Origin: Acetobacterium malicum subsp. dehalogenans DSM 11527
GTDB taxonomy: Bacteria; Bacillota; Clostridia; Eubacteriales; Eubacteriaceae
Direction: 5' to 3'
Assembly: GCF_000472665.1 (NCBI RefSeq)
Contig: NZ_AXAC01000035.1
Span: 1 to 51,064, forward strand
Length of the DNA: 51,064 bases
Shown: one piece after another, positions 1,248-7,334 of the stretch
Layout of the letters: every line of letters begins with the position of its first letter
Position numbering within the stretch: position 1 is the first letter of the stretch
Translations under genes and position numbers: made by a program
The notes under the pieces: generated by a model
Told to the model about the DNA's origin: nothing
The model's database searches: none
Seen by the model: the letters and a program-made list of their open reading frames with translations, nothing else

Positions 1248-2177
1248 CTAACTAAACATTTTTTTCTTAAATAGCACAAAGGCAGCCACGCCGGTACAGG
1301 CAACCGAAATCAATACCACACTCCAAAAATTAGGAATCGGTAACCCTTCGACGTTCATTCCGAAAAAACTGGCAATCATCGTTGGTATCGCCATTAAGAT
1401 GGTTAAGGATGTCAGGATCTTCATCACAATATTTAAGTTGTTTGAGATAATCGATGCGAATGCGTCCATGGTTCCGCTGAGAATGTTGGCATAAATATTA
1501 GACATCTCAATGGCCTGTTGGACTTCAATCAGCACATCTTCCAATAATTCCTTATCCTCTTCATAGAGTTTGATAATACGGCCACGCTCCAGCTTTTCCA
1601 AAACGCCCTGGTTAGCTTTCAGGGATGTCGAGAAAAACACCAGACTCTTTTCCAGGTCAAGCAACTGGATCAGTTCCTTGTTTTTCATGGATATATGAAG
1701 TTGCCGTTCAATATCGGTACTCATCCGGTTAATATGACGCAGATAAATTAAAAATCGACTGGCCACCCGGTATAAGATTTGAAATATAAAACGGGTTTTT
1801 AAATTTGTATAGACATTTTTAACGCGTCCTTTTGCAAAATCGTCGATGAGGGTATTGCCCCTTAAACAGACGGTAATAATATTCTCTTCGGTTTGAATGA
1901 TCCCAACTGGTATGGTTGTATAAAGTACCATCTTGGTATCTTTTTCAATCACTGGAACGTCGATGGTGATAAGCGCCTGGTTATTGTCTTCCAGTTCCAC
2001 CCGGGAAATTTCTTCTTCATCCAGTGCGGCTCTCAGGAAATCCGGCTCCACCTCTAATTCTCTGGTGATAAACTGCAATTCTTCTTCCGTTGGATTAACC
2101 ATGTTGATCCAGCTGTTTTTTTCAATGGTTTCAATTTCTTGAATCTTGCCATCAACGGTTTTATAGATTTTGATCAT
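1248..2177 (-). CDS. corA: CorA-family magnesium/divalent cation channel
   Basis: Pentameric inner-membrane Mg2+ channel. The 309 residues comprise a large cytoplasmic N-terminal domain, a long helical stalk (about residues 130-245), and two C-terminal transmembrane helices (about 248-270 and 283-303). The signature GMN sits in the loop between them (SFFGMNVEG), with a basic tail KKKMFS. The start is ATG, preceded at good spacing by AAAGGAGG. The transcript starts upstream of an M-box magnesium riboswitch, then carries a terminator and a 29-codon upstream ORF that stops 15 bases before this gene. Magnesium is therefore the likely physiological substrate. Cobalt or nickel transport by some CorA homologues is possible, but the M-box argues against it here. 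Confidence 0.93.
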   Translation of the reverse strand: MIKIYKTVDGKIQEIETIEKNSWINMVNPTEEELQFITRELEVEPDFLRAALDEEEISRVELEDNNQALITIDVPVIEKDTKMVLYTTIPVGIIQTEENIITVCLRGNTLIDDFAKGRVKNVYTNLKTRFIFQILYRVASRFLIYLRHINRMSTDIERQLHISMKNKELIQLLDLEKSLVFFSTSLKANQGVLEKLERGRIIKLYEEDKELLEDVLIEVQQAIEMSNIYANILSGTMDAFASIISNNLNIVMKILTSLTILMAIPTMIASFFGMNVEGLPIPNFWSVVLISVACTGVAAFVLFKKKMFS

Positions 2178-2192
2178 TGCTTTCCTCCTTTA

Positions 2193-2282
2193 TTAAGAGC
2201 AGCCGATGATCTGTAAGATAATTTGGCCGCTCAGTTTTTGTTCATTTTGTTCAATACGCTTCTCTCCAGGGTCTGCGTCCAT
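2193..2282 (-). CDS. 29-residue upstream ORF (candidate leader peptide) of corA
   Basis: A short ORF runs from ATG at 2282 to TAA at 2193-2195. Its ribosome binding site is AAGGAG with a 9-nt spacer. The peptide begins MDADPGEKR and ends in a hydrophobic stretch (IILQIIGCS). The stop lies 15 nt before the corA ATG, and the corA Shine-Dalgarno sequence fills that gap, so the two ORFs look translationally coupled. The acidic-proline N-terminus resembles the EPDP of enterobacterial MgtL, whose translation aborts at low Mg2+. That parallel is inference. It could also be a plain small protein or a chance ORF. Confidence 0.6.
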   Translation of the reverse strand: MDADPGEKRIEQNEQKLSGQIILQIIGCS

Positions 2283-2360
2283 CCTATCTCACTCCTTTTT
2301 TTGAATTTGTACTAAAGAAAACCATTTTGCAGATTTGCCCATGGTTCTTCCCTTTAATAT

Positions 2361-2398
2361 AGAAAATAAAAAATCTCCACTTTAACAGAGGAGATTTT
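2361..2398 (-). terminator. Terminator hairpin of the M-box expression platform
   Basis: A 9-bp stem (2370-2378 with 2390-2398) is followed on the minus strand by U6-A-U4. It lies between the M-box aptamer and the corA leader ORF, as expected for magnesium-induced termination. Confidence 0.88.
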
Positions 2399-2404
2399 CG
2401 CACA

Positions 2405-2582
2405 GCAAAAATAATGATTCCTCCATTCGTTGAGTTTTGGCACTATACAGCATAGGGCAATGCCCAACTGCATTAAGTAAAACCTTAATTCGATAGTACC
2501 TGTTGACCCATTGGCATCTTTCGATGTTTCCGGGCAGCAGCCATATCTGTATAGGAGCCTCACCTAACAAAAGAAACATTTA
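2405..2582 (-). promoter_or_regulatory. M-box (ykoK) magnesium riboswitch upstream of corA
   Basis: On the minus strand the core M-box blocks are unmistakable: GTTAGGTGAGGCTCCTAT, GCTGCTGCCCGGAAAC, GATGCCAATGGGTCAACAGG, then TTAATGCAG and GCCCTATGCTGTATAGTGCC. The order and spacing match Mg2+-sensing M-box leaders of Gram-positive transporter genes. High Mg2+ should promote the downstream terminator and reduce corA. Confidence 0.96.
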
Positions 2583-2602: not shown

Positions 2603-2631
2603 ACTATATCTTTTTATCTCCCGGTTGTCAA
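2603..2631 (-). promoter_or_regulatory. Promoter of the M-box-corA transcript
   Basis: Minus-strand -35 TTGACA (2626-2631), a 17-bp spacer and -10 TATAGT (2603-2608) lie directly upstream of the M-box. Confidence 0.8.
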
Positions 2632-2694: not shown

Positions 2695-4089
2695 TTACTC
2701 TCCTGATTCCTCGTTTTTTGGTTCTTCCGTTTCCTCATTATCTAACTCTTCCCCATCGTTACTTTCCAATTCTTCAATCACTTTGCTTTCCAGCGCCGCT
2801 TTCTCCCGGCGTTTTTTTCGGTAAATGACAACACCGAGGATTCCACTGACAACAATAATTGCTCCAAAAATTGCTGCCACCCCGGCGATTACCCAGGGAT
2901 TGGTTACCGGAGGCTTAACAATATTAACCCGTACTGTAGCCACTGCACTTTTATAGGTATTATTGCCTTTGTACTTAACAAGCACCTCCTGCTCGCCAAC
3001 TTCCCGGTCATATTCCAACTCAATATCATCTCTGTCATATTCGATTTTGTTATTATCCTCATCGACGAGATCAAGTTCCAGATCGTCATAAATAGCATCA
3101 TCCAGATTCTCATCATTGTCATCATACTCCACTTCACCAGGATAATCGTTAATAATCAGTGAGCAATCGTCTTTTTCGTAAATGGTTACTGTTTGGGTGG
3201 CCATGCTGTAATTAAATTTTTCATTCCCTTTATACTTAACAGTAACCGGTTGATCTCCCGCTACCCGATTATAGCTTAATTCGATGTCGGTTGTTGTAAA
3301 ATTCACGGGATTATTCTTGCTGTCGACCACTTTAATCTCCAGCGCCGCATAAACGGCGGCATCCAACTTCCCCGGATCTGATTGATATTCTACTAAACCG
3401 GGGGATTTTGCCAGACTAACACTGGTATTTTCCTTGGTCGGGGCCGGTGGATCAACATTTCCTTTGATCTCAACAAAGGCTGTCCCCAAGCTTGGCAGAA
3501 ACTGATTATTGCCCTTGTACTTTACGGTTACATCCTGCTTACCTGGGGCACGATTGTAGCTTAATTCAATATCGGCCGCGGTAAAGCCCACCGGGTTATT
3601 GCCAGCATCAACCACTACAACCCCCAGGGACTGGTATACTGACAGATCCAGTTGGGCCGAATCCCCGGTGTAGGTGACTGCCGGAGGATTGGCACTTAAG
3701 ACCACCCGGGTTTCTGTTCTCGGCACCTCTGTTATGGTAATCCCTCCCGACGCTGAACTGCTTAGATACTGATCATTCCCTTTATAGGTTACATCCACTC
3801 TTTGCGTGCCAACCTGGCGGCTATAATTGAGATTAATCTCATCTTGAGAAAAATCAATCTTATTTGAGTTTCCATCAAGAACAACAATACTTAGTGCCTG
3901 AAATACGGCCTGATCCATCGCCGACTGGGATGGGTTAATGATCACCGCCGGCGGAGAACTGGCCATAGATATGGCGGTTTCCATTTTTTCCCCAACCGCA
4001 GCCCAAATAGCGCCGGGCAACATAAGCAAAGTCAGAGATATCATTAAAATGATTTTCAATAAAGATTTGTCAGACTTTCCATCCTTCAT
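2695..4089 (-). CDS. Membrane-anchored surface protein with four repeated beta-rich domains
   Basis: Function not known. The 464 residues contain a signal peptide (hydrophobic core about 11-30, ending AIWAA) and four copies of an 85-90-residue domain. Each copy carries the pattern LDxAVYxxLxxxVVDxxNN, then DIELSYNR, then VTVKYKGN. A short proline linker (VDPPAPT) follows the second copy. A single transmembrane helix (about 403-425) with a YRKKRREK stop-transfer end precedes an acidic cytoplasmic tail rich in Glu and Asn. The last repeat is strikingly acidic (many DD and ED pairs) compared with the others. The upstream neighbour at 4144-5700 is a close paralogue with five repeats. The gap of 54 bp suggests one operon. 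No LPxTG sorting signal is seen. An adhesive or structural extracellular role is a guess. Confidence 0.8.
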   Translation of the reverse strand: MKDGKSDKSLLKIILMISLTLLMLPGAIWAAVGEKMETAISMASSPPAVIINPSQSAMDQAVFQALSIVVLDGNSNKIDFSQDEINLNYSRQVGTQRVDVTYKGNDQYLSSSASGGITITEVPRTETRVVLSANPPAVTYTGDSAQLDLSVYQSLGVVVVDAGNNPVGFTAADIELSYNRAPGKQDVTVKYKGNNQFLPSLGTAFVEIKGNVDPPAPTKENTSVSLAKSPGLVEYQSDPGKLDAAVYAALEIKVVDSKNNPVNFTTTDIELSYNRVAGDQPVTVKYKGNEKFNYSMATQTVTIYEKDDCSLIINDYPGEVEYDDNDENLDDAIYDDLELDLVDEDNNKIEYDRDDIELEYDREVGEQEVLVKYKGNNTYKSAVATVRVNIVKPPVTNPWVIAGVAAIFGAIIVVSGILGVVIYRKKRREKAALESKVIEELESNDGEELDNEETEEPKNEESGE

Positions 4090-4143
4090 TTTCCTTCTCC
4101 TTATACCATTGCTGGATATTCCGTCAGTACCGCTTGACCGCTA

Positions 4144-5700
4144 TTAATTACTCTGCGAATGTTTTTTACGATAAATCACCACTCCAATAATTCCCAAAAC
4201 AATGACAATGGCACCAATAATTCCAGCCACTCCGGCAATCAGCCAGGGATTATTGGGATTCGGTTGGACAATGTTTACCCGCACTGTCGCCACCGCACTT
4301 TTAAAATAATTGTTGCCTTTGTATTTGACAATAACCTCCTGCTCGCCCACTGCTCTTGTATAATCAAGCTCGATATCGTCCCGATTGAATTGAATTTTAT
4401 TGTTGTTTTCATCCACTACTGTAACGCATAGATCCTGATAAACCGCCTCATCAAGATTTGTCGTGTTATCATCATAGTCGACACTCGGCGGATTTTGCGA
4501 AATAATCAGCGAACTGTCACCCTTATTGGTAATGGTCACTGTTTGGGTAGCGGTGCTGCCGTTAAATTGATCAGTTCCCTTATATTTCACCGTCACCGGC
4601 TGATCGCCCGGTTCCCGGTTGTAGCTTAGTTCGATATCGGTGGTTGTAAAATTGATGGCCTTATTCTTGCTGTCAACTACCTGAATGCCCAATACCTGAT
4701 AAACGGCGGCATCCAGCTTTCCTGAATCGGTGGTGTAGGCTGCTTCAATAGGTGGCTTGGCCAGATTCACGGATGTATTTTCTTTAGTTGGCGCCGGTGG
4801 ATCAACTTTCCCGGTGATTTCGACATTTCCGGTGGCCGTACTTGGCGAAAACTGGTCATTTCCCTTATATTTTACGGTGACATCCTGTTTCCCCGGGGCA
4901 CGATTATAGCTCAAGTCAATATCAGCTGCAGTAAAACTGATTTTGTTGTTGCCCGCATCGACGACGACAATGCTCAATGCCTGATAAACGGCCAGATCAA
5001 GTTTTGCTGAATCACTGGTATAGGCCACAGCCGGAGGTTTAGCCGCAATTGATACCTTGGTATCCTGCTTGCCGGTTATTTGAACCGTGGCATTTACCTG
5101 GCTTGGGTTATACTGGGAATTCCCCTTATAAGCGACAACAACATTTTGCGTTCCCACGGCATGATTATAGGTCAGGACCATGTCGCTTGGTGCAAAATTG
5201 ACCTTATTGGAATCACCATCTACCACTTGAATAACCAGATCATCATAAACTGCTTTATCCAGTGTTGCCGTATCGGCAGAATATCCCACCGATGGGGGAT
5301 TGGCTTTCAGCACCAGTCGGGTATCTTTTTTGGGAACATCATTAATGATAATCGTTCCGGTCGCGGTACTGACTTCATACTGATCATTTCCCTTAAAAGT
5401 GACCGTTATTTTTTGTGTCCCCACCTGGCGGTTATAGTCGAGGGTAATGTCGTCTGAAGTAAAGTCAATTTTATTGTAGTCGCTATCCACAACTACGATG
5501 TTCAACGCTTTATACACTGCCTTATCCAGCTCGGCGGCCGACGCATTAAAGGTTACCGACGATGGCGCGCTGGCAATCGATATTGTCGTTGCCATTTTTC
5601 CATCGACTTCCGCCCAAATGCTCATCGGCAGCATCAGCAAAATTAATGCCGCCATCAATCCTGTTTGCCACAATCGTCCACTTAATTTTTCATTCTTCAT
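4144..5700 (-). CDS. Membrane-anchored surface protein with five repeated beta-rich domains
   Basis: Paralogue of the product of 2695-4089, function unknown. The 518 residues start with a signal peptide (LMAALILLMLPMSIWAE). Five tandem copies of the same 85-90-residue domain follow, each with the VVDxxNxKI, LxYNxxxGxQ and VxYKGNxQ landmarks. A C-terminal transmembrane helix (about 488-510) ends in YRKKHSQSN, and there is no long acidic tail. The third, fourth and fifth repeats are closest to repeats two, three and four of the paralogue, so the two genes differ mainly by one repeat. The start ATG has GGAAAGGAAACG upstream. The protein is likely extracytoplasmic, with the repeats facing outwards. 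Confidence 0.8.
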   Translation of the reverse strand: MKNEKLSGRLWQTGLMAALILLMLPMSIWAEVDGKMATTISIASAPSSVTFNASAAELDKAVYKALNIVVVDSDYNKIDFTSDDITLDYNRQVGTQKITVTFKGNDQYEVSTATGTIIINDVPKKDTRLVLKANPPSVGYSADTATLDKAVYDDLVIQVVDGDSNKVNFAPSDMVLTYNHAVGTQNVVVAYKGNSQYNPSQVNATVQITGKQDTKVSIAAKPPAVAYTSDSAKLDLAVYQALSIVVVDAGNNKISFTAADIDLSYNRAPGKQDVTVKYKGNDQFSPSTATGNVEITGKVDPPAPTKENTSVNLAKPPIEAAYTTDSGKLDAAVYQVLGIQVVDSKNKAINFTTTDIELSYNREPGDQPVTVKYKGTDQFNGSTATQTVTITNKGDSSLIISQNPPSVDYDDNTTNLDEAVYQDLCVTVVDENNNKIQFNRDDIELDYTRAVGEQEVIVKYKGNNYFKSAVATVRVNIVQPNPNNPWLIAGVAGIIGAIVIVLGIIGVVIYRKKHSQSN

Positions 5701-5844
5701 TCTCGTTTCCTTTCCAACTGGTCATAATTCGTTTGTACTGATTATTATCTTATTTACCGACTATTTTAACATATAATCACTGAAAAAGTTTCTTTTTTTA
5801 TGTTAGATTCACTCCTACATCTATTTTATTTAATCCCAGGCACT

Positions 5845-5874
5845 AAAAAAGACCTGCCCCTAAAAACAGATCTT
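5845..5874 (-). terminator. Terminator of the MBG-domain surface protein gene
   Basis: An 8-bp stem with one G-U pair (arms around 5849-5856 and 5867-5874) is followed by seven U residues on the minus strand, 24 bp after the stop codon. Confidence 0.8.
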
Positions 5875-5897
5875 CTTTCTTTAAATTTTATTTTGAA

Positions 5898-7334
5898 CTA
5901 ATCCATTTTTGTTAACCGATTCTTACCAAAGAAGATCGCTCCGGCAATCAGCAACAGTAGCAGTAGCGCAATTCCCATATAGGGTACCGGTGACTCTGCT
6001 TCTTTTTCTGTTGCGCCATTTCCGCCATTGCTGTAATCATTCCCGCCATAGACAGCGACAGCATCTTCTTTCTTAACAATTTCAAATTTATCGGTTCCGT
6101 CAGCCAGGATAATACGGTAATTAGCATTATTTAAGCTCCCTAAAAAAATGTCGTAGCTGCCCACCGCTTCACCGGCTTCGCGTTCTAAGGAGCCAAACAT
6201 TACATCATCAGCATACAGCCCCTTATTAAAGCCATCGCCAGAATCATCCTGCCAGACCGTGTAGGTTAATGCCGGGTCTGCTTCGCCCTGAACTTTCGAA
6301 ACATAAGCCGGGATAACCGTTACCGCAGCCGGGGTAATATCATATTTTTTCTTTGAAACGATTGTTTGATTATTAATTGTATAATTGTCGGCGTTTGTCC
6401 CGTTGATTCCATATAAATAGAATCCGCCTGTTGCCCATACATAATAACTCCCCACATCTTTTTGCTGGATATTAATTTCTCCGTAATAGGGATAAAAATT
6501 CTCAGCGCCAAAAGCGCCTAATTCTTCACCCTGGATCAGATCCGTTTTAATGACCGATAGTTGGTAGTCATGAAGGTTTGGTGTTCCATCATATACCTTA
6601 TCTTGACCGGCAAGAAGAACTTCCACCGGTTTGGGCAAAATATTCGCGCCCAGTGAGATGTCGATACTCACTAATGGTTTCGTCACTTTATTTTCATCAA
6701 CAATGATATAGTTTTTTCCTTTTTCTCCTGAAATTGTCATTTCTTTGAGGATAATCAGGTTAGGATTGACCGGTCTTACATCTTTAAATAAAAAATTGGC
6801 AGATTTGTAGTTAAATACCACCACATTTATATCTGCATCGATAACACCGGTGTTCCCCAATCCCTTTAAGACATTTTCGGGCACACTGGTATTACCATCA
6901 TATATTTTAGCAATTGGCTTTTCAGTGAAGAATTCTGTTGTTTTGAGTTCGACGGGCATAATTTTAATTTCTTTTTTATCATCAATGCTCTGATAGGCTT
7001 CATCACCCCGATATCCTGCAAACACCATATAGGTTCCTGCCGCCGAAGGCGGAATCGCCGATAATGGGTACGCTTCTCCATTTGCCTGAATCCCTTTATA
7101 GGTGATCTCGATCAGGTCAGGATTAAGATCAGGGCCATCAACAGCTGGATTTACGGTCGCCAAAACGTGAGGATTTCCATTATAAACGGGATCGGAAGAG
7201 AAGACAATAAGCGGGATTAATGTTCCCTGTTCAGCTTCGTTTTCTGCTAAAACGCCGATTGGAAAGCATGCCACATTCAAAACGATCGTCAAGACTAGGC
7301 CTAAAAACAGCCTGATACCTTTGGTCTTTTTCAT
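5898..7334 (-). CDS. Membrane-anchored surface protein with YDG/MBG-type domains
   Basis: The 478-residue secreted protein has a signal peptide (about 1-30, ending GVLAE) and immunoglobulin-like modules. The first segment carries VYNGNPHV and FAGYRGDEAY. The next segments have KIYDGNTSV and KVYDGTPNL, the hallmark of YDG domains. A final module has KVQGEADPALTYTV, the hallmark of MBG domains. An Asn-rich linker and one C-terminal transmembrane helix (about 450-470, MGIALLLLLLIAGAIFFG) with a short basic tail finish it. Such domains are common in bacterial adhesins and surface-layer-like proteins. The specific ligand is unknown. It has its own promoter and terminator and lies upstream of two other anchored repeat proteins, which suggests a surface-protein cluster. 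Confidence 0.82.
   Translation of the reverse strand: MKKTKGIRLFLGLVLTIVLNVACFPIGVLAENEAEQGTLIPLIVFSSDPVYNGNPHVLATVNPAVDGPDLNPDLIEITYKGIQANGEAYPLSAIPPSAAGTYMVFAGYRGDEAYQSIDDKKEIKIMPVELKTTEFFTEKPIAKIYDGNTSVPENVLKGLGNTGVIDADINVVVFNYKSANFLFKDVRPVNPNLIILKEMTISGEKGKNYIIVDENKVTKPLVSIDISLGANILPKPVEVLLAGQDKVYDGTPNLHDYQLSVIKTDLIQGEELGAFGAENFYPYYGEINIQQKDVGSYYVWATGGFYLYGINGTNADNYTINNQTIVSKKKYDITPAAVTVIPAYVSKVQGEADPALTYTVWQDDSGDGFNKGLYADDVMFGSLEREAGEAVGSYDIFLGSLNNANYRIILADGTDKFEIVKKEDAVAVYGGNDYSNGGNGATEKEAESPVPYMGIALLLLLLIAGAIFFGKNRLTKMD

Follow-up and report, generated by a model that had tools for sequence, protein, structure and literature searches.

The window analysed here, a stretch of 51,064 nt from Acetobacterium malicum subsp. 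dehalogenans DSM 11527, carries on its minus strand, in this order, a promoter-like site, an M-box riboswitch assigned by the RF00380 covariance model above its gathering score, a terminator, a 29-codon open reading frame (ORF), corA, an FMN riboswitch and a gene for an ECF riboflavin-type transporter (Table 1). The stability of the terminator hairpin was matched by none of 200 shuffles. The preliminary description had placed the small ORF between the M-box terminator and corA, with an AAGGAG site and a 9-nt spacer, a stop ending 15 nt before the corA ATG, the corA Shine-Dalgarno (SD) sequence within that gap and a peptide beginning Met-Asp-Ala-Asp-Pro-Gly-Glu; its coordinates and all of these details proved correct. 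Near-identical corA loci occur in Acetobacterium sp. (100%) and A. wieringae (97%–98%). A Pfam search with the 29-aa leader peptide gave no match, and assignment to a known protein family was dropped. Upstream of the promoter-like site, three neighbouring minus-strand ORFs of 464, 518 and 478 aa (2695–7334) resemble surface proteins in having internal repeats and an anchor-like C-terminus.

Table 1. Features of the corA leader in the window
Feature	Position	Strand	Basis or remark
Sigma-70-like promoter, TTGACA-17-TATAGT	2603..2631	(-)	Consensus match 11/12; the match alone is no evidence of function
M-box (Mg2+) riboswitch aptamer	2415..2578	(-)	RF00380, 149.2 bits against a gathering score of 44
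Intrinsic terminator hairpin of the M-box, followed by a U-tract	2369..2399	(-)	-13.4 kcal/mol, z -4.46
Leader-ORF Shine-Dalgarno sequence, AAGGAG	2292..2297	(-)	9 nt upstream of ATG
Leader ORF, 29 codons, peptide MDADPGEKRIEQNEQKLSGQIILQIIGCS	2193..2282	(-)	Sequence; alignment of Acetobacterium loci
Codons 1-8, MDADPGEK, peptide part common to four genera	2259..2282	(-)	Sequence comparison
Region 1, leader-ORF start region, 5' arm of helix 1:2	2275..2291	(-)	Predicted
Region 2, partner of region 1 or region 3	2214..2232	(-)	Predicted; helix 2:3 uses 2232-2225
Region 3, partner of region 4 or region 2	2195..2211	(-)	Predicted; helix 2:3 uses 2204-2197
Region 4, hidden in helix 3:4	2172..2189	(-)	Predicted; corA SD AGGAG 2189-2185, start codon 2177-2175
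corA, CorA-type Mg2+ transporter, 309 aa	1248..2177	(-)	PF01544, E 6e-53

Searching 19 Acetobacterium genomes gave 17 M-box/corA loci, each with the leader ORF and an AGGAG-type site upstream of it; the two genomes in which no such locus was found are 86% and 83% complete. Moreover, of the 34 SD-led small ORFs that the 51-kb window contains on its two strands, no other fits M[DE]x[DEG]P, and a chance ORF was rejected as an explanation. The Acetobacterium peptides start with an invariant MDADPG[ED], with Asp2 and Asp4 in 17/17, vary in the middle and end in I[IMV]GCS, and the indels within the ORFs are in-frame, of 3 nt. Codon 5 (Pro) is CCT in 16 loci and CCC in one. When changes were mapped on the corA tree, codons 2–7 showed five synonymous and one non-synonymous change (a conservative E to D), compared with 10 synonymous and 28 non-synonymous changes in loop codons 8–17, a contrast that involves small numbers (Fisher p = 0.013). 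The retention in relatives of the ORF and its acidic-Pro codons, with a bias towards synonymous change, which the preliminary description had proposed as a check, was thus observed, and we regard the ORF and its conserved N-terminus as well supported. In four loci (L010, L011, L015 and L016), the M-box terminator and the leader ORF are separated by an insertion of at least one copy of a GC-rich, palindrome-like repeat (GCGCGAAGGCAACGAGCCAA...), downstream of which the ORF is intact. Two Acetobacterium genomes (G014, locus L024; G016, locus L025) have a second M-box, located before a P-type ATPase-like gene, with a leader ORF beginning MDSDHSSGIEPER....

Folding of 12 Acetobacterium leaders predicted, in all 12, pairing of the corA SD and AUG with the last codons of the ORF (helix 3:4) and pairing of the ORF start region with the middle of the ORF (helix 1:2). 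Helix 2:3, formed in the window by GAGCGGCC with GGCUGCUC, is predicted to exclude both. The pairing probability of the corA SD was at least 0.61 in 14 of the 15 leaders computed, reaching 0.91 in the window's leader, and was weak (0.41) in L009. RNAalifold yielded helices 1:2 and 3:4 unprompted. Among 16 distinct alignment rows, 97.2% of cells pair in 1:2 plus 3:4, compared with 38%–52% in slid controls, and 95.3% pair in 2:3, compared with 31%–63%. Compensatory change is thin in the genus, with one pair changed on both sides per structure: shuffles reach the number of double-changed pairs in 469 and 425 of 500 cases, so that it is no excess, whereas they reach the number of double-changed cells in only 2 and 6 of 500, and the covariation score of 2:3 (0.086) is exceeded by those of two slid controls (−3, 0.208; −1, 0.093). 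The support within the genus is therefore one of preservation more than of covariation. By prediction and preservation, the leader contains mutually exclusive helices of the mgtQ type, 1:2 and 3:4 versus 2:3, with the transporter SD in region 4.

A search of 40 genomes of the family for an SD followed by MDxDP returned 29 sites in 25 genomes and one in the reversed control. Besides the 17 Acetobacterium corA leaders, these sites include eight in corA leaders of three additional genera; no Mg2+ transporter gene was found behind the remaining four. The eight sister-genus leaders, whose CorA proteins are 62%–80% identical to Acetobacterium CorA, keep MD[AGS]DP[GC]EK, and no similarity was evident beyond residue 9. 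The sister-genus peptides comprise MDADPGEKRLLKLNNQAVIISAYILTAF and close variants (four loci), MDADPGEKS[TI]KMNTKYKFRRS (two loci), MDGDPCEKKYLIKHVSKR and MDSDPCEKMIFHLLV. At the gathering score, these eight loci show no M-box; the first sister genus has an M-box elsewhere, before a P-type ATPase-like gene (L018–L021).

Helices 1:2, 2:3 and 3:4 were predicted again in the sister genera with quite different letters. In L320, for example, the predicted helices join the ORF start GAUAUUAUGG with UCAUAAUAUC (1:2), GCGGUCA with UGACCGC (2:3) and UUUUGACC with the corA site GGUCAAAA (3:4). Nine representatives of the four genera, which are related within genera and thus do not amount to nine independent tests, were compared with shuffles, these being, as in the survey and M-box-free tests below, first-order Markov resamplings and not exact dinucleotide shuffles. 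At p < 0.05, helix 1:2 beat the shuffles in seven of the nine (misses, L014, 0.064, and L327, 0.094), helix 3:4 in eight (miss, L327, 0.152) and folding of the middle alone in eight (miss, L014, 0.063), the last giving the 2:3 hairpin in all representatives but L014. These predictions suggest that whole helices were replaced across the four genera while the layout and the N-terminus stayed. In the four-genus corA set, the peptide signal (residues 1–8) is set apart from the RNA arms, which makes it directly testable whether D/E-P starts report Mg2+. A functional small protein acting on CorA or on Mg2+ homeostasis, the kind of peptide role that the authors of a study on a conserved mycobacterial M-box small ORF favour in its accessible text (PMC12810186), is very unlikely here, given that conservation across genera covers only about residues 1–8 and the remainder differs in peptides of 15 to 29 aa. 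A function of the conserved Acetobacterium C-terminus (IIGCS) was likewise dropped, since the sister genera lack IIGCS and, in Acetobacterium, it coincides with the segment predicted to pair with the corA ribosome site.

Considering these results, we propose that the leader ORF is translated and probably serves as a ribosome-operated switch on corA translation, placed behind the transcriptional switch of the M-box, so that Mg2+ would be read twice. In the OFF fold, the ORF start would pair with the middle of the ORF (1:2), and the ORF end with the corA SD and AUG (3:4); in the ON fold, helix 2:3 would free the corA ribosome site. At low Mg2+, ribosomes may slow on, or drop off, the first codons (Asp2, Asp4 and Pro5) and be reloaded by the good SD, and with region 1 covered, region 2 would pair with region 3 and corA would be translated. 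When Mg2+ is ample, ribosomes would pass region 2, or region 1 would be left to pair, and 3:4 would form, turning corA off. Given the footprint size that we assume, a ribosome on codon 5 would presumably cover region 1 and leave region 2 free, so that slow, aborting or repeated starts would give 2:3 and corA ON, and full runs or the absence of a ribosome would give 3:4 and corA OFF. This sign agrees with that of the M-box, taken as OFF at high Mg2+, as is reported for the Bacillus subtilis M-box (PMC12810186). The single Pro of MDADP, compared with four in MgtL, counts against this scenario, and a ribosome that finishes the leader ORF might, by simple coupling, open 3:4 as well, thereby reversing the sign.

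Plain translational coupling would instead have corA read only when a ribosome finishes the ORF and opens 3:4, with Mg2+ playing no part or with scarce Mg2+ lowering corA. It would suit the position of the leader stop codon, whose first base is the final paired base of 3:4 and whose end lies 15 nt from the corA AUG, and a helix 3:4 that is predicted to hide the corA SD and AUG (SD pairing of 0.91 in the window's leader). However, coupling leaves helix 2:3 and the conserved acidic-Pro start unexplained, and we consider it unlikely. In L326 and L327, the leader ORF ends at or just before region 2, some distance before the main part of region 3, so that, with the footprint size assumed above, a ribosome terminating there would barely touch region 3, if at all; acidic-start ORFs also end 50–94 nt upstream of the gene in L018–L025.

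To place the leader ORF in a wider context, M-box leaders were gathered across family, order, class and phylum, giving 189 leaders, of which 172 were non-redundant and 167 had a callable target gene. Of the M-boxes listed in the class search, four were omitted (two at contig ends, G425 and G430, along with G315 and G129), and the phylum sample consisted of 30 loci taken automatically and 40 picked for family diversity. The automatic rule misplaces some target starts (e.g., L119, L239 and L247). An SD-led small ORF preceded the target in 112 of the 167 leaders, nine of the 112 being Acetobacterium corA leaders, although this and the other survey numbers are descriptive because the SD cut-off, initially −6 kcal/mol, was moved to −8 and then to −9 kcal/mol with the data in view. 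Under the same rule and in the same class, such ORFs were found in 0/29 FMN leaders and 5/28 SAM leaders, none of them of the acidic-Pro type. The ORF was present in 108 of 130 M-box leaders whose gene lies at least 150 nt from the aptamer, compared with four of 37 with a nearer gene, and 52 of the 167 leaders lacked such an ORF even under a looser rule. By BLAST linkage, the 167 targets fall into MgtE-like (87), CorA (43), P-type ATPase-like (23) and ABC permease (7) clusters and small further groups (7 in all), the MgtE-like, CorA and ABC permease names being taken from a Pfam match of one member each and the ATPase name from sequence resemblance only.

Residue 2 is D or E in 91, residue 4 is G or D in 79 and residue 5 is Pro in 54 of the 112 survey leader ORFs. 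Within residues 2–9, 56% of the leader ORFs contain [DEG]P; the figure is 1.3% for 224 target proteins, and reading the leader-ORF DNA in its two alternative frames gives 3.6% and 4.5%. The stricter motif M[DE]x[DEG]P is matched by 48 of the 112 leader ORFs, or by 39 of 103 if Acetobacterium corA is excluded. In 60 control loci, where the two strands yielded 155 SD-led small ORFs, it is matched by none. Such a preference for one frame, along with the retention of SD, start and frame, the in-frame indels and the synonymous bias at the start, makes it hardly credible that the leader RNA folds by itself with its ORF untranslated, even though the helices are predicted without any ribosome. In the 83 of 112 leaders that start with M[DE] and have suitable spacing, the ORF start region was more complementary to the following leader than shuffles were (mean z −2.1, 66% at p ≤ 0.05), and the target start region gave a mean z of −1.75 and 46% at p ≤ 0.05. 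Where regions 2 and 3 were separable in order (37/97), 2:3 beat shuffles in 54%, and in the 30 separable leaders from outside Acetobacterium, it did so in 43%.

CorA relatives collected by protein search, without reference to riboswitches, pointed the same way by an independent route. From 53 loci, 38 were scanned: 11 Acetobacterium loci (L026–L036) were not rescanned, and L078 (partial) and L045, L066 and L068 (no upstream sequence) were dropped. An SD-led M[DE]..P ORF lies upstream of corA in 25 of the 38 (MDGDPGS, MEGDPKP, MDADPLS, etc.), and the 13 without one are the Chloroflexi, Cloacimonetes and Planococcus loci, L074, L077 and Clostridia L058, L060, L061 and L063. Among 37 corA relatives searched, L040 alone has an M-box. 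Dependence of the leader ORF on the M-box was thus rejected, as 23 of the 24 relatives with M[DE]..P (excluding L037) have no M-box at the gathering score; a search of six such loci at a loose threshold also found none. The distant corA leaders proved too divergent for folding as alignments. In 23 M-box-free corA leaders, pairing of the ORF start beat shuffles in 43% and pairing of the corA start in only 17%, and the switch is therefore not equally clear everywhere. Judged from the distribution of these sequences, the leader peptide is a separate unit, found with or without an M-box, and no mere add-on to it.

The Pro codons of the leaders are largely CC[CU], the type linked to m1G37. Early Pro codons (residues 2–9) are CC[CU] in 86 of 102 cases, which include related Acetobacterium leaders, whereas the target genes have CC[CU] at 957 of 1808 Pro codons (p = 1e-10). 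At codon 5 outside Acetobacterium, CC[CU] is used in 40 of 42. Such codons might stall ribosomes when the Mg2+-dependent TrmD leaves tRNA-Pro without m1G37, as proposed for mgtL, which has CC[C/U] at positions 3, 5 and 7 (PMC6335274). We regard sensing through these codons as possible but doubtful, and its probability overlaps with that of the proposed ribosome-operated switch because both can act together; with this CC[CU] bias, a tRNA-methylation version is inseparable here from nascent-chain destabilisation. Many leader ORFs without an early Pro (MDVGSSS, MESGSDS) still start acidic, an acidic residue 2 (91/112) is commoner than Pro5 (54/112), and the M-box-free corA set has CCG at residue 5 in 5/23 and CC[CU] at only 21 of 29 early Pro codons, all of which speak against codon sensing.

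The likeness to MgtL suggested by the preliminary description holds in register, with acidic residues 2 and 4 and Pro5, and in the CC[CU] codons, but fails in the Pro residues, since only Pro5 of the MgtL Pro residues at 3, 5, 7 and 9 is present; MgtL, the leader of mgtA in Escherichia coli and Salmonella, also acts on transcription termination (through Rho in Salmonella) (PMC11282234, PMC6335274, PMC6460261). The corA leader was not filed as a member of the MgtL type because of these missing Pro residues, and its predicted output, unlike that of MgtL, is corA translation, with transcription left to the M-box. The EPDP of MgtL (Glu2/Asp4) is reported to destabilise ribosomes at low Mg2+, and a toeprint with EttA places Pro3 in the P site (PMC11282234). 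The leader of Salmonella mgtB, mgtQ, resembles the corA leader in being a small ORF whose product has Asp2 plus another acidic residue, in its translational output on a Mg2+ transporter and, by prediction, in its helices 1:2 and 3:4 versus 2:3, with region 4 holding the transporter ribosome site (PMC8092293). The acidic ORF start of the mgtQ type was found in 17/17 Acetobacterium loci and eight further corA loci. In mgtQ, the acidic codons Asp2 and Glu5 raise mgtB translation by favouring 2:3; it differs in encoding 8 aa and in lying in a PhoP-driven operon between mgtC and mgtB without a riboswitch, and we claim no sequence relation (PMC8092293). CorL of E. coli and Salmonella is likewise a leader ORF before corA, and corA expression is inverse to its translation; it has a UUG start in E. 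coli and Rho-dependent termination, and the accessible text mentions no M-box (PMC11552253). Mycobacterial uORF2 (rv1805A) shares the M-box, a conserved small ORF, Mg2+-related genes and a conserved Pro near the N-terminus (position 7), whereas its M-box is a translational platform with Rho, its peptide is described as specific to mycobacteria, and the accessible text proposes no acidic-Pro sensing (PMC12810186).

The preliminary description stated that no case of this combination had been described. The combination itself was not found in the literature consulted; its parts, an M-box with an upstream ORF (PMC12810186) and corL before corA (PMC11552253), are described. The 'small ORF' in the accessible part of PMC4072509 is another feature and was set aside. 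Ribosome profiling data of A. woodii (PRJEB33460) and Eubacterium limosum (GSE97613) are public (PMC7873083), and the main text of an A. woodii profiling paper contains no mention of uORF, riboswitch, leader or magnesium (PMC8407422). In the open-access literature, with most subscription papers outside this scope, nothing was found that joins the M-box with MgtL or the M-box riboswitch with an upstream open reading frame, and no Bacillota form of such a Mg2+ leader peptide, with or without an M-box, was found among the titles and abstract openings examined. The first interpretation of the locus is thus partly supported, right in kind and too narrow: it had missed that IIGCS coincides with a segment predicted to pair with the corA ribosome site, that the predicted layout is mgtQ-like and that the leader also occurs without an M-box in sister genera.

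Control of an M-box gene by Mg2+ is usually ascribed to the M-box alone. A second, ribosome-based sensor is suggested by the small ORFs that most of the longer leaders in the M-box sample contain, and if such a sensor follows the M-box, many Mg2+ genes would have two sensors with different outputs, and the ribosome itself would be a general gauge of Mg2+ in Gram-positive bacteria and no enterobacterial oddity. Leader peptides of enterobacterial mgtA, mgtB and corA and an M-box with a conserved small ORF in mycobacteria are already known. We lean slightly towards the broader view that leader peptides of the form M-[DE]-x-[DG]-P, reading Mg2+ before CorA, MgtE and P-type ATPase genes, extend across the Bacillota with an origin apart from MgtL and MgtQ, often behind an M-box and as an older or separate unit that works without the riboswitch too.

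Several further loci were noted during the survey. M-boxes precede an ABC-type permease gene in L233, L244, L143 and L267, four of the seven members of the ABC permease cluster (PF00528 in L233, the others by BLAST cluster), and with the leader ORFs MDADPGP and MDADPEP in L233 and L244, the product is possibly a Mg2+ importer of another type. In L135, a leader-like start, MDSDGSKGNNTNHLISEVTQ, continues in frame into an MgtE-like protein, resembling a fusion of leader and transporter. One genome (G269, C7:106258-108225; L089 and L113) has two M-boxes about 1.6 kb apart, preceding genes that are MgtE-like and MgtC-like by resemblance only, and one of the leader ORFs reads MESDNDGPFEG. Among the SAM controls, the small ORF judged most convincing (MCISKTKTKAFLITIYMTPFKEI) has a strong SD and lies 85–205 nt after the SAM riboswitch of L218, before an ABC transporter ATPase-like gene. 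A different corA leader, AGGTGATT(n)ATA GAA NNN AGG TGA, occurs at seven fitting loci of one Clostridia family (L092, L093, L096, L097, L117, L131 and L133), as if a mini-ORF (M-E-x-R-stop, with an AUA start) overlapped the corA SD, and by eye, L106, L108 and L114 have similar AUA-type corA leaders.
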